This document shows positions 7,673 to 12,579 of a stretch of DNA of 15,828 nucleotides, piece by piece. Positions within the stretch are counted from its first letter, which is position 1. Each line of letters begins with the position of its first letter. The DNA is from a bacterium (GTDB lineage: Bacteria; CAIJMQ01; JAADFP01): positions 1-15,828 of the forward strand of contig JALUVB010000043.1 of NCBI GenBank assembly GCA_027021085.1, written 5' to 3'. The notes under the pieces are model-generated. The model was not told the origin of the DNA. It saw only the letters and a program-made list of their open reading frames with translations, and made no database searches. The position numbers and the translations under genes are program-made.

Positions 7673-8800
7673 ATGGATAACAAAATTTTGCTCTTGGGTG
7701 AAAGTGCACGTTTTGACCGGGTAAGCAGTTTTTCAAAACGAGGTGAAAAGGGTATGGGAAAATGGGTTTACCCTGCCCTATTGCCGGATGGCAAAAGAGT
7801 CAACATTATGAAGGTTCTTATGGATAATAGATGTGAAAACAACTGCCTTTACTGCATGAATCGAAAAGATTCTCCCCTACCCCGCACTTACTTCCGTCCT
7901 GAAGAATTATCCAGGATTTTCCTGGAACTTTATCGCAAAAGGATTGTACAGGGCATTTTCCTGAGTTCTGCTACCGGGCCGGATCCCCTGATTACTTTGA
8001 AAAACATGATAAAAACATGCCAAATCCTGCGAGAAAAATATAGATTTACCGGTTATCTCCATTTGAAAATTCTGCCCTTCGCTCCCTTTTCCTACATAGA
8101 AGAAGCGATAAGCTTGGCAGACAGAGTATCTATAAACCTTGAATCTCCTAACGGGCACTGTCTCTCTGCCATAGCTCCTGATAAAAACTGGAGTAATCTC
8201 TGGGGTATTATCAAGGCAATGAAAGAAATTTCAGGGAGAAAACCTTCCTCCCGCGTGGGTATAACTACGCAATTTATAGTGGGGCCGGGTGGAGAGAAAG
8301 ATAAGGACCTGGTGTATCTTGCCTATAACCTGTATCGACATTACAAATTAAAACGAGTTTATTATAGTGCTTTTACTCCTTTGCCTTCCACCCCCCTGGG
8401 CAAGTACCCTTCTACTTCTCCCTTGAGAGAGTATCGCCTGTATCAGGTAGATGCTCTCATTCGCTATTATGGTTTCTCTTCCGAAGAAATACCCTTTGAA
8501 GAAGGTAATCTTAATCTGAGTACTGACCCTAAACTTCTCTGGGCACTAAGGCATCCTGAATTATTTCCCGTGGAGGTAAACAAAGCTTCTTTTGCCACTC
8601 TTATCAGAATCCCCGGGATAGGTCCTGCAGGAGCGCAAAAAATTATTAAAAGAAGGATAAAGGAAAAGATAAGGAATGAGGAAGATTTAAAAGGTTTGCG
8701 CATACAGAGCAAAAGAGCGCTTCCATTTCTTCTTTTGGATGGGAGAGTTCTACGAAAGAAAACTTATAGTAAAAATCTTCTTCCGTTTCTTCGGGATTAA
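7673..8800 (+). CDS. Putative DNA modification/repair radical-SAM protein with C-terminal HhH motif
   Basis: The protein matches the radical-SAM family usually found beside a uracil-DNA-glycosylase-like partner and proposed to act in DNA modification or repair. From the ATG at 7673 (375 residues) it starts MDNKILLLGESARFD, as family members do. The cluster motif is CENNCLYC (Cys54, Cys58, Cys61). Typical family stretches follow: IFLSSATGPDPL, YTGYLHLKIL-like FTGYLHLKIL, VYYSAFTPLP and ALRHPELFPVEVNKA. A helix-hairpin-helix, RIPGIGPAGAQKI, near residue 310 suggests DNA contact. A GTG at 7655 would add six residues; neither start has a clear Shine-Dalgarno. The usual glycosylase-like partner gene is not beside it here. 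Family assignment is strong; the reaction is not known. Confidence 0.85.
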   Translation: MDNKILLLGESARFDRVSSFSKRGEKGMGKWVYPALLPDGKRVNIMKVLMDNRCENNCLYCMNRKDSPLPRTYFRPEELSRIFLELYRKRIVQGIFLSSATGPDPLITLKNMIKTCQILREKYRFTGYLHLKILPFAPFSYIEEAISLADRVSINLESPNGHCLSAIAPDKNWSNLWGIIKAMKEISGRKPSSRVGITTQFIVGPGGEKDKDLVYLAYNLYRHYKLKRVYYSAFTPLPSTPLGKYPSTSPLREYRLYQVDALIRYYGFSSEEIPFEEGNLNLSTDPKLLWALRHPELFPVEVNKASFATLIRIPGIGPAGAQKIIKRRIKEKIRNEEDLKGLRIQSKRALPFLLLDGRVLRKKTYSKNLLPFLRD

Positions 8801-8833
8801 CTTCAGGGCGAATAAAAATACAGGAGGTAGATT

Positions 8834-9262
8834 ATGATAGAAAAAATTCCAGTAAGAACTACCCGCAGGCAGGAATTCGTGGATTTAACCCCTAAAATAC
8901 AGGAAATAATCCGCGGAAACTCTATCAAAACAGGGGTAATACATATCTACATTCCGCATACAACAGCAGCTGTTACTATTAATGAGAATTACGACCCCAG
9001 TGTAATCCAGGACATATTAAGTACGCTGGAGAAACTAATTCCTGAGAGAGGTGGATATTCACACCTGGAAGGTAATGCCCATGCGCATATCAAGGCAAGC
9101 ATAATTGGGTCTTCACGTTTTATTCCCATAGAAAACGGGAGGTTGCAGGTTGGCACCTGGCAGGGTATCTTTTTTTGCGAATTTGATGGTCCACGCTCAA
9201 GAGAGGTGTGGATATCCTTTTTACCCGCTTCTGCAAACTCCCCGGGCAATTCGCTCGCTTGA
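8834..9262 (+). CDS. YjbQ family protein (UPF0047)
   Basis: The ATG follows a near-perfect Shine-Dalgarno, AGGAGGT at 8822-8828. The 142-residue product is the usual length of the YjbQ/UPF0047 family, some members of which have weak thiamine-phosphate synthase activity. Family hallmarks are all visible: IHIYIPHTTAAVTINENYDP near the centre, GNAHAHIKASIIGSS, and GTWQGIFFCEFDGPR near the end. The conserved histidines in these motifs would form the family's metal site. It is a compact cytosolic protein without extra domains. The physiological role is uncertain in this family. Its stop codon (TGA, 9260-9262) overlaps the -35 box of the next promoter, so the following gene is transcribed separately. 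Confidence 0.9.
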   Translation: MIEKIPVRTTRRQEFVDLTPKIQEIIRGNSIKTGVIHIYIPHTTAAVTINENYDPSVIQDILSTLEKLIPERGGYSHLEGNAHAHIKASIIGSSRFIPIENGRLQVGTWQGIFFCEFDGPRSREVWISFLPASANSPGNSLA

Positions 9263-9287
9263 CAACCGTGTGTTATATTGCTATACT
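9259..9287 (+). promoter_or_regulatory. Near-consensus sigma-70 promoter
   Basis: TTGACA (9259-9264), a 17-base spacer and TATACT (9282-9287) differ from the sigma-70 consensus at one position. Transcription should start near 9294, about 20 bases before the ATG of the 90-residue membrane protein. The -35 box overlaps the stop of the YjbQ gene. It is the best promoter in the window. Confidence 0.85.
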
Positions 9288-9315
9288 CCAATCAAAAAGA
9301 AAGGAGGTGCAGTAG

Positions 9316-9588
9316 ATGGGTAGTTTAATCGGCGGCATGATAGCCGTGGTTTTGGGAATTTGGGGAATAATAGGTTGGTGGGGTTGGTTTTTAAGGATTT
9401 TAATGGGCTCTATTCCTTTCCTTCTTCTTCTGGGCGGTGCAATAGCTATATTTGGTGGCATTACTTCTATCAAGGACCAGATTGCAGCTAAGAAGGAAGA
9501 AGAGAAGATACAAGAGGAAGAGATAAGAGAAGAGGAAAAGAAGAAAGAAAAAAAAGAGAAGGGTGCGGAAGATAAAAAGAAAGAATAG
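9316..9588 (+). CDS. Small two-helix membrane protein with long charged tail
   Basis: The ATG has a textbook ribosome site, AAGGAGGTG (9301-9309), and lies about 20 bases after the predicted transcription start. Residues 2-27 and 30-50 are two hydrophobic helices rich in Gly and Trp, joined by a one-turn loop (WWGWFLRILMGS). The motif GGITSIKDQ follows. Residues 55-90 are almost only Lys and Glu and should form a charged helix or coiled coil in the cytoplasm. The family is unknown to me. The layout of two short helices, WW and a terminal GxxSIK recalls MamI-like small membrane proteins, but that is a weak resemblance and the charged tail is extra. Promoter, ribosome site and terminator suggest strong expression as a single gene. 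Confidence 0.75.
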   Translation: MGSLIGGMIAVVLGIWGIIGWWGWFLRILMGSIPFLLLLGGAIAIFGGITSIKDQIAAKKEEEKIQEEEIREEEKKKEKKEKGAEDKKKE

Positions 9589-10681
9589 TAATTGGTATAG
9601 AGACAGGAAAAGGGGGCATGGAGAAGCCCCCTTTTTTATTTTTATTTTTATTTTTCTCCTGTTCAATCTCCTCCAGGCAGAAGAAGCAATTGTTGTCAAG
9701 ATAGTAAAAGCGGAGGGAAGTGTCGAGGTTCTTCTTCCCGGAGAAAAAGAGTGGAAGGAATGCCGGAAGGGAGATATCCTCTCTCCGGGAAGCGAAATAA
9801 AAACAGGAGAAAATTCCAGAGCTATTATAAAGTTTGCTGACTTTGGAGTTATCACTCTTTTTCCCAACTCCAGGTTGAAATTGAAGAGTTACTCCCTGAA
9901 AGAAAATATGTATAAATCCTCAGTGTTTTTCTCTGCAGGTAAGATATGGACTGTTATCAAAAAACCTTCTGTAAAGGGAACCAATTTTATTCTTGAGACA
10001 CCAAATGCTCTGACTGGTGTGCGAGGAACCACCTATTTTGTGAAGTATATTCCGCAACAGGAATTTACCCGTGTAGGGGTAATAGAAGGGGAAGTGGGAG
10101 TAAAGGGGAAGGGAAAGATTCCCGGCTATGTTCTGGTTAAATCTATGATGGCTACTAACATAGTAAAAAATGAGCCGCCCGCTTCTTTAGAGAAGCTAAG
10201 GGAAGCGGAAATAAAAGAATGGCAGAAGTGGAAGGAAGACCTGCAGAAAGCAGTTCCGTTATGGGCAAAAGGAATAGTGGGAGCTATGGCAGGGATGGAT
10301 GAGTCCAGAAGAGTGGAAGCAGCAATGACGGTAAAGAAAATATCCATGGCGAAAAGAGGAGGAAAGAAAGCCAGAGAAGATTTCTGGGGTTTTGAGGCAG
10401 CAATAAAACAGTTCTTTAAAGATACTGGGCGAATTCCCACCCGGCAAGAGGGACTAAAGGTTCTCCTGGAAAACGAGGGAATAGAGGGCTGGAATGGCCC
10501 GTATCTTGCTCCTTCCAGTAACCTGCTGGATCCTTATGGGCATCCCTACCAGTATCGGGTCAAGAAAACTCCCCGGGGGTCACGATACATAGAAATACGT
10601 TCGGTGGGAGTGGATGGTATTGCAGGGAGTAATGATGACCATATCAAGCTAATTTTCCTGAAAAAACTCCGAGCTAAATGA
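9563..10681 (+). CDS. Secreted FecR-domain protein with GspG-like pseudopilin C-terminus
   Basis: The open frame begins at GTG 9563 and overlaps the previous gene by 26 bases, but this start has no well-spaced ribosome site. Numbered from there: a basic stretch, a hydrophobic signal-peptide core FFIFIFIFLLFNLL (24-37) with cleavage likely at LQA-EEA, a FecR domain (about 43-180, with KAEGSVEVL, GDILSPGSEI, TPNALTGVRGTTYFVKY and VIEGEVGV), a charged helical linker, and a C-terminal domain (about 270-360). The last matches the globular part of type II secretion major pseudopilins: KDTGRIPTRQEGL, WNGPYL, DPYGHPYQYR and SVGVDGIAGSNDD. The N-terminal prepilin peptidase motif is absent, so it is not a processed pilin. 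It should act in the periplasm or envelope. The stop overlaps the CHASE2 kinase start (ATGA), implying coupling. The true start is unresolved: a well-placed ATG at 9618 is one frame off. Confidence 0.85.
   Translation: MRKIKRKNSNWYRDRKRGHGEAPFFIFIFIFLLFNLLQAEEAIVVKIVKAEGSVEVLLPGEKEWKECRKGDILSPGSEIKTGENSRAIIKFADFGVITLFPNSRLKLKSYSLKENMYKSSVFFSAGKIWTVIKKPSVKGTNFILETPNALTGVRGTTYFVKYIPQQEFTRVGVIEGEVGVKGKGKIPGYVLVKSMMATNIVKNEPPASLEKLREAEIKEWQKWKEDLQKAVPLWAKGIVGAMAGMDESRRVEAAMTVKKISMAKRGGKKAREDFWGFEAAIKQFFKDTGRIPTRQEGLKVLLENEGIEGWNGPYLAPSSNLLDPYGHPYQYRVKKTPRGSRYIEIRSVGVDGIAGSNDDHIKLIFLKKLRAK
9608..9637 (+). terminator. Strong intrinsic terminator overlapping the next gene's start
   Basis: AAAAGGGGGC (9608-9617) pairs perfectly with GCCCCCTTTT (9626-9635) around an eight-base loop, and six T residues (9632-9637) follow the G-C part. 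This is a classic rho-independent terminator 20 bases after the stop of the small membrane protein. Unusually, its loop contains an ATG (9618-9620) and it lies inside the reading frame of the FecR-GspG gene, so it could also limit transcription or translation of that gene. Confidence 0.85.
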
Positions 10682-12579
10682 GGAGGATTGTTTCCCGCTA
10701 TTTTCTAAGCGGGATAATCAGCGGGGTATTCTCTATTTTCCTGATCCTGTTATTGGGAAAGTCAGGAGCACTTAATTTCTTTTCCGGGAATTACCTGGAT
10801 TTCTTATTTGAGCTCAGGGGGGAAAGGAAACCTGGTAATGTAGTAATCATAAGCATTGACGAGGAGACCTTAAGAGGCCTACAGAAAACCTGGCCTATTC
10901 CCCGTTATTACTATGCACAATTAATCCGACAGATTGCTTCCCCGGAAGTAAAAGGTATAGGTGTGGATATCCTCTTTCTTGATTCTGCCGAAAAAGAGGC
11001 AGACAGGAAATTAGAGAAGGTCTTAATTAGTGCTCCTGTTGTATTAGCGGCGAAATTTGAAAAAGAAAGGAGAAAGATAGCAGGAATAGAAATAGAAAAA
11101 TTTTTTCTTGCCACTCCAGCAGAGGTTTTTCCCCGGGTGAATTGGGGATTCATAAATCTCCCCATGGACAGAGACAACAATATTAGAAGAGTGATTTTAA
11201 GAGAACGCTGGGAAAATATGGAAGTGCCTTCTTTTGCCCTATCCTTATACAAAATGGCAGGAAGAGATTTTGTTCCCTCTCACCATCCTTATCTTATTAA
11301 TTTCTACGGGGGGAGCGGAACATTCCCTACTTTTTCTTTCTACAGCGTGTTGAAAGGGGAAGTAAATCCCGGGTATTTCAAAAATAAATTTATTCTCATT
11401 GGGGTTGGTATTCCCGAAGCCCATGACTATTTTCTTACTCCATTCAAAAGCGAGTCCCTCATGTCAGGGGTAGAAATTCAGGCTAATATCCTGGAAAATA
11501 TTTCGAAGGGAGAATTTTTAAAAGAGTCTAATCCCACTGCTATTCTCATTGTTAACATTATATCTGCCTGCATGGCCGTAGCAGCGTCCTTGCTGCTCTC
11601 TACTATCTTGGGAGGAGCTTCTCTGGTTGTTTTTGCTTTTTTGCTTTTCGTTCTTTCCATATATTTTTTTGCAGGAAGAAACTATTTTTGGGATATCTCC
11701 CCTACTCTTTTGTCCTATTTAATTACCTATACATTTACTTCATTTACTCTAAAAGTGCGCATATTTACTTCCCCGGTGCTGGGAAAGTACAGGTTGGTGG
11801 AAGAAATAGGCAGAGGGGGTATGGCAGTAGTATATAGGGCATTAAGAAGGGGGAGAAGGAAATTTGTTGCTCTAAAAGTTTTACAGGAATCTTTTTCGCA
11901 TGACCCTGTATTCTTGCAAAGATTTCGCAGGGAAGTAGAGGCAGTAAAGGCTCTTGAGCATCCGAATATTGTAAAGATATATGAAGCGGGCAGTGAGGAA
12001 GATAAGTATTTCTTTTCCATGGAGTTTTTGAGGGGGAAGAGCCTTGATGATTACCTTAAAGAAAAAGGGAAATTAGAAGAAGCCGAAGCACTTGCCATTC
12101 TGACAGGAATAGCAAAGGGATTGCAACATGCTCATAACAAAGGAATAATCCATAGGGACCTTAAGCCGGGGAATGTTATACTGACTTCCCAGGGGCCCAA
12201 AATTGTGGACTTCGGGCTGGCAAGGGATCTTTCCAGCCAGGCCACCCGGGTAACTGTCACGGGAACGATGATGGGAACACCTGAGTATATGGCGCCTGAA
12301 CAATTCAGGGGAGAAGAGACCGATGAAAGAACAGATATTTACGCCCTGGGAGTGGTCTTTTATGAGATGCTTAAAGGTTCTCCTCCTTTCCAGGGTGAAA
12401 ACCTGGGAGAGATAATGAATCTTCATCTCTGGGAGGAAGCAGATACTTCTGGATTAAGGGAAGAGGTAAAGGCTATTATAAATAAGATGTTAGCCAAGAA
12501 TAAAGAGGAACGGTTTCAAAATATGGGAGAAGTGATTGAGAGATTGGAGATGGTAGTTAGTAGTGAGGGGAAAAGATAG
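10678..12579 (+). CDS. CHASE2-domain transmembrane Ser/Thr protein kinase
   Basis: The ATG overlaps the upstream stop (ATGA). Residues 10-30 are a first membrane helix. A CHASE2 sensor domain follows (about 38-280), with NYLDFLFELRG, VVIISIDEETL, WPIPRYYYAQLI and GVDILFLD, and would lie in the periplasm. About three membrane helices follow (290-355). The cytoplasmic kinase spans about 370-628: glycine loop GRGGMAVVYRA, ATP-binding Lys400 (VALKVL), catalytic HRDLKPGN with Asp494, DFG at 511-513, GTPEYMAPEQ and DIYALGVVFYEM. All catalytic residues are present, so it should be an active Hanks-type kinase. The protein ends directly after the kinase. FecR genes next to CHASE2 proteins are a known pairing, so the coupled FecR-GspG protein is probably a periplasmic partner. 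The substrate is unknown; an FHA protein lies downstream. Confidence 0.95.
   Translation: MRRIVSRYFLSGIISGVFSIFLILLLGKSGALNFFSGNYLDFLFELRGERKPGNVVIISIDEETLRGLQKTWPIPRYYYAQLIRQIASPEVKGIGVDILFLDSAEKEADRKLEKVLISAPVVLAAKFEKERRKIAGIEIEKFFLATPAEVFPRVNWGFINLPMDRDNNIRRVILRERWENMEVPSFALSLYKMAGRDFVPSHHPYLINFYGGSGTFPTFSFYSVLKGEVNPGYFKNKFILIGVGIPEAHDYFLTPFKSESLMSGVEIQANILENISKGEFLKESNPTAILIVNIISACMAVAASLLLSTILGGASLVVFAFLLFVLSIYFFAGRNYFWDISPTLLSYLITYTFTSFTLKVRIFTSPVLGKYRLVEEIGRGGMAVVYRALRRGRRKFVALKVLQESFSHDPVFLQRFRREVEAVKALEHPNIVKIYEAGSEEDKYFFSMEFLRGKSLDDYLKEKGKLEEAEALAILTGIAKGLQHAHNKGIIHRDLKPGNVILTSQGPKIVDFGLARDLSSQATRVTVTGTMMGTPEYMAPEQFRGEETDERTDIYALGVVFYEMLKGSPPFQGENLGEIMNLHLWEEADTSGLREEVKAIINKMLAKNKEERFQNMGEVIERLEMVVSSEGKR

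Follow-up and report, generated by a model that had tools for sequence, protein, structure and literature searches.

A conserved terminator hairpin inside the signal-peptide codons of a FecR-GspG gene: a probable attenuator within a coding region

Results

A predicted attenuator inside the fecR-GspG coding region

In a 15,828-nucleotide stretch of bacterial DNA (the window, a contig of a 1.93-Mb genome, hereafter G000), a gene encoding a FecR-GspG protein probably carries a transcription attenuator within its own coding sequence. Judging from comparative sequence analysis, translation would start at the GTG at 9563, an intrinsic terminator would lie in frame a few codons further on, and fecR-GspG (henceforth fecR) and the kinase gene behind it would be expressed by readthrough of this terminator, without any frameshift. 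The anatomy can be read directly: the GTG frame, the hairpin and the promoter are conserved, and no other promoter was found. From this anatomy we infer initiation at the GTG, the efficiency of termination and the effect that ribosomes would have on it.

Three loci share the gene order

The nearest relatives of the window are a locus from the same genus (G001, JAADFP010000091.1) and one from a second genus of the same family (G002, JAGGYA010000003.1). The comparison is based on three loci from two genera of Calescamantes, which is all that the searched genomes gave, and a scan of genome contigs for further loci returned the same two relatives only. A search of seven genomes of the class added no further locus: the FecR proteins of its other family are distant and begin at an ordinary ATG. 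Published Calescamantes populations inhabit terrestrial thermal springs of ~70-90 C (PMC4791363), and the host family consists of uncultured bacteria, probably of hot springs. The record of G001 is titled Caldisericota bacterium, while our kinship table places it with a Calescamantes genome; it is probably a mislabelled MAG.

All three genomes have the order small protein, FecR-GspG and CHASE2 kinase (Table 1), with different genes farther upstream. The small protein matches the profile of the magnetosome protein MamI with 43 bits (E = 3e-11), which lies below the NCBIfam cut-off of 80 bits. One copy of this MamI-like protein is found in each of the seven class genomes, and none of 14 control genomes has a match. 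FecR-GspG is a fusion of a FecR domain to a C-terminal part resembling GspG, a pseudopilin of type II secretion systems (T2SS). A distant relative in another lineage (L006) aligns over both parts with 33% identity and has an ordinary ATG start. Since the kinase gene begins at an ATGA overlap without a Shine-Dalgarno (SD) sequence, coupled starts appear to be normal in the fecR operon.

Table 1. Features of the fecR-GspG locus (positions in the window)
Feature	Position	Strand	Remarks
Promoter TTGACA-17-TATACT	9259..9287	+	extended -10 in G000; upstream of the small gene in 3/3 genomes
Small membrane protein gene, MamI-like	9316..9588	+	strong SD GGAGG; 3' end overlaps fecR start by 26 nt
FecR-GspG gene	9563..10681	+	FecR domain residues 78-178; T2SS GspG domain residues 268-360
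GTG start (predicted)	9563..9565	+	sole in-frame ATG/GTG/TTG upstream of the mature FecR region; same phase to the upstream ORF in 3/3 genomes
Signal peptide codons of FecR-GspG (MRKIKRKNSNWYRDRKRGHGEAPFFIFIFIFLLFNLLQA)	9563..9679	+	assigned by eye; basic n-region, then hydrophobic core
Intrinsic terminator (predicted)	9606..9637	+	stem of 12 pairs, loop of 8 nt, T6 running into a T-rich tail; within the fecR frame
Loop ATG (start proposed earlier)	9618..9620	+	not conserved; G001 has ATA, G002 an ATG in a different frame
T TTT TTA heptamer	9632..9638	+	part of the terminator U-tract; no sign of frameshifting use
CHASE2-Ser/Thr kinase gene	10678..12579	+	ATGA overlap with fecR; without SD; adjoins fecR in 3/3 genomes

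A single promoter found upstream of a conserved predicted terminator

Scanning the + strand from 8400 to 12120 for promoter-like sites gave none besides the one in front of the small gene, and promoter scans of the three genomes detected none between this conserved promoter and fecR. As far as such scans can tell, a polymerase therefore has to get past the terminator to transcribe fecR and the kinase gene.

The hairpin in their way has the stem and loop GGAAAAGGGGGC-ATGGAGAA-GCCCCCTTTTTT, with six of its 12 pairs G-C, and combines a G-C-rich stem with a U-tract directly after it, the form of an intrinsic terminator. No other terminator-like site in the window comes close to it, and it is the only strong element in folds of the region. 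The fold energy of 9605-9640 is -19.7 kcal/mol (z = -3.66), a value that none of 200 shuffles equalled; the stability predicted at 75-80 C is only -4.5 to -6.7 kcal/mol, modest and still negative. Strong terminators are rare in these genomes, as a strict scan of both strands returned only 10 sites in 347 kb of G000 and 5 in 272 kb of G002, and most of those inside ORFs in this survey lay late in the ORF, close to an alternative start, or in an ORF that is itself doubtful. A possible second case is an ExbB/MotA-like gene of G000 (L076:6067-6684), in which a hairpin of terminator shape (GAGGATAC...GTATCCTC, followed by T-rich sequence) lies at codon 6, with no later start for ~50 codons. The fecR hairpin is terminator-shaped on the - strand as well, with T4 after the stem; there it sits in an antisense ORF of 155 aa (9400-9867), which is unlikely to be a gene.

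The predicted terminator is conserved in all three genomes, with its pairing kept through sequence changes when the arms are anchored. G001 retains all 12 pairs with a single G-U to A-U change, and in G002, whose arms (GGGAGC/GCTCCC) were anchored by hand, the loop is longer by one base and one G-C pair has become A-U by a double change. RNAalifold, run on the automatic alignment, did not see this double change because that alignment places no gap in the loop. In each genome the terminator lies 20-23 nt 3' of the upstream stop codon; in the window it takes up fecR codons 15-25. Few synonymous recodings of codons 10-34 reach the observed terminator score (336 of 20000 for G000, 448 of 20000 for G001 and 1 of 20000 for G002), so the hairpin is not accounted for by the protein sequence alone. 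The preliminary description of this DNA had remarked that a terminator laid over the start of the gene would tie its expression to readthrough; the superposition does recur across two genera, and the coupling would follow from it.

The GTG at 9563 is the supported start codon

The same description had offered a genuine GTG start as one of several options, and this is the one that the comparison favors. In all three genomes the GTG lies near the end of the upstream ORF, within its final codons and in equal relative phase (GGT G), and the FecR frame is open from it (to 10681 in the window), while each of the other two frames has at least one stop between the GTG and the mature protein. Ahead of the mature protein the three genomes share no further ATG, GTG or TTG, nor any ATT or ATA after the first codons, that could supply a signal peptide. 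The spacing of the elements varies: in G000, G001 and G002, respectively, the overlap with the small gene is 26, 29 and 17 nt, the gap from its stop to the stem 23, 20 and 22 nt, and the loop 8, 8 and 9 nt. Despite this variation, the distance from the GTG to the 3' arm (63, 63 and 54 nt) is always a multiple of three. Substitutions counted by codon position are too scarce to establish the frame by themselves.

The reading frame thus defined carries the signal peptide of FecR-GspG across the terminator: the 3' arm of the stem encodes Ala-Pro-Phe, and the hydrophobic core begins in the U-tract. The earlier objection that the GTG has no well-spaced ribosome site holds for G000 and G001, where the best pairing to the anti-SD sequence is weak (-2.9 kcal/mol), but not for G002, where pairing is fair (-7.5 kcal/mol at a spacing of 6). 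We conclude that GTG 9563 is the supported start of FecR-GspG, and that translation probably initiates there.

Readthrough may depend on translation

How would such a locus be expressed? We propose that transcription begins at the single conserved promoter, at 9259, and that most RNA polymerases would stop at ~9637-9645, leaving a short mRNA that encodes the small protein. Readthrough transcripts, which would be few compared with the abundant mRNA of the small protein, would then serve to make FecR-GspG and the CHASE2 kinase. A ribosome travelling close behind the polymerase, and ending the small gene ~20 nt before the stem, would hinder formation of the hairpin; by an alternative route, a ribosome translating fecR from the GTG across the stem would hinder it as well. 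Readthrough should accordingly rise and fall with translation. The arrangement matches that expected of a ribosome-dependent attenuator, with a terminator within or just after a translated region and upstream of, or in, the gene to be regulated.

Measurements in E. coli bear on the ribosome effect in both directions. Terminators less than ~27 nt from an upstream stop codon are repressed by ribosomes (PMC4824070), and the stop codon of the small gene, 20-23 nt before the G-C stem, falls inside this range; readthrough should therefore increase when the small gene is translated. By contrast, for a terminator 30 nt after a start codon translation cost only ~10% of the efficiency (PMC4824070), and coupling between overlapping genes drops steeply for overlaps of 4 to 25 nt (PMC12548453). 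Such a small loss, together with poor coupling near 25 nt, means that the ribosome effect may be slight and the terminator mainly a fixed valve. On this analysis an effect of ribosomes on readthrough is plausible.

The ribosome effect is also all that separates the attenuator from its most serious competitor, which assumes the same anatomy: the hairpin could be a plain 3' terminator of the small gene, overlapped by the GTG as an accident of compact packing and leaky at a constant, unregulated rate. This account, to which we give a substantial chance, if somewhat less than an even one, is functionally the simplest, as hairpin and promoter suffice for it, and terminators near stop codons are common (PMC4824070). 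It sits less easily with the finding that the superposition has been kept in two genera through indels that leave the frame intact, and that all fecR transcripts must cross the hairpin for want of a separate fecR promoter in the scans.

A stricter form of regulation, in which a ribosome that starts at the GTG and crosses the in-frame terminator is what lets the polymerase go on, so that the gene's own translation decides its transcription, is in our estimate unlikely. If true, fecR-GspG and the sensor kinase would be expressed only when the mRNA of the upstream membrane protein is efficiently translated, and a structural gene would carry, across genera, an attenuator in the codons of its signal peptide.

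Other start sites fit the comparison poorly

Readings in which fecR does not start at the GTG fare much worse. The gene could have a promoter of its own within 9590-9700 and a non-canonical start after the hairpin, for which G000 offers ATT codons at 9638, 9644 and 9650. The corresponding codons of G001 are GTT, CTT and GTT, however, no promoter-like site was found on the coding strand at 9590-9700, and a start after the hairpin would drop the basic part of the signal peptide. We therefore regard this possibility as very improbable.

The preliminary description had put forward programmed -1 frameshifting, with a start at the loop ATG (9618) and a slip at T TTT TTA into the FecR frame. Its observations are all borne out by the sequence: the stem, the ATG in its loop with AGGA (9605-9608) nine bases 5', the frame reading MEKPP and then the heptamer in -1 phase, and the stop TAG at 9702-9704. 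Neither the ATG nor the phase is conserved in either relative, however. The loop of G001 (ATACAGAG) has ATA in place of ATG, and the first ATG, GTG or TTG after the last stop in that frame falls past the slip site; the loop ATG of G002 falls into the remaining wrong frame, at offset 50 (phase 2) as against offset 55 (phase 1) in the window. A heptamer in phase with a translated upstream frame, as a frameshift site would have, is thus not what the three loci share, the phase occurring in the G000 window only.

Nor does the surrounding RNA favor slippage. Both the AGGA and the ATG are buried in a hairpin of about -19 kcal/mol, so that the proposed ribosome site would be sequestered. This strong hairpin stands upstream of the heptamer and takes in part of it, whereas 5-9 nt downstream, where a stimulatory structure would be expected, the fold of 9585-9704 (pseudoknots excluded) has only weaker pairing. 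The heptamer itself is no more than chance would give: TTTTTTA occurs ~0.3 times per kb per strand in G000 and any X XXY YYZ ~5 times per kb, and here the U-tract of the terminator supplies it for free. As the FecR frame is already open from the conserved GTG, we consider frameshifting at this site hardly credible.

Equally far-fetched is a base missing from the C5/T6 tract, by sequencing error or phase variation, that would hide a simple ATG start at 9618: a one-base change would indeed link this ATG to the FecR frame, but the tract is exactly C5T6 in G001, a separate MAG from another species of the genus that lacks the ATG, so the homologous locus provides no extra base, and the GTG frame is open in 3/3 genomes.

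Discussion

Taken singly, an attenuator, a terminator near a stop codon or a pair of overlapping genes is nothing new. A word search covering part of the literature yielded no conserved intrinsic terminator inside the signal-peptide codons of a downstream structural gene. In two genera the bases of the stem and U-tract double as signal-peptide codons, the U-tract being reused as a Phe/Ile/Leu-rich signal sequence. Programs that find genes or terminators usually treat a terminator as the border between transcription units and expect the next start codon behind it; the fecR start precedes the terminator. The locus offers a small and concrete test case for the question of whether a gene's transcription can be rescued by its own translation.

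Compared with known systems, the locus shares only the U UUU UUA heptamer with programmed -1 frameshift sites, and differs from them in lacking a conserved zero-frame start, a conserved phase and a strong downstream stimulator. Like the coupled overlapping gene pairs described in PMC12548453, fecR overlaps its upstream neighbor co-directionally, by 17-29 nt, and has a weak SD sequence in two of the three genomes, but the terminator inside the downstream coding sequence sets it apart, and its overlap exceeds the spacings at which coupling is strongest. The distance of 20-23 nt from stop codon to stem falls in the range in which ribosomes repressed termination in the tR2 constructs measured in E. 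coli (PMC4824070), although in those constructs the downstream gene starts after the terminator and fecR starts before it. A further parallel is offered by the pyrBI-type attenuators of E. coli (PMC4824070), in which the terminator likewise lies in a translated stretch and a ribosome behind the polymerase blocks the hairpin, as we propose for fecR. In those attenuators the translated stretch is a dispensable leader peptide, whereas at the fecR locus it is the beginning of the structural gene itself, placed behind a complete upstream gene.
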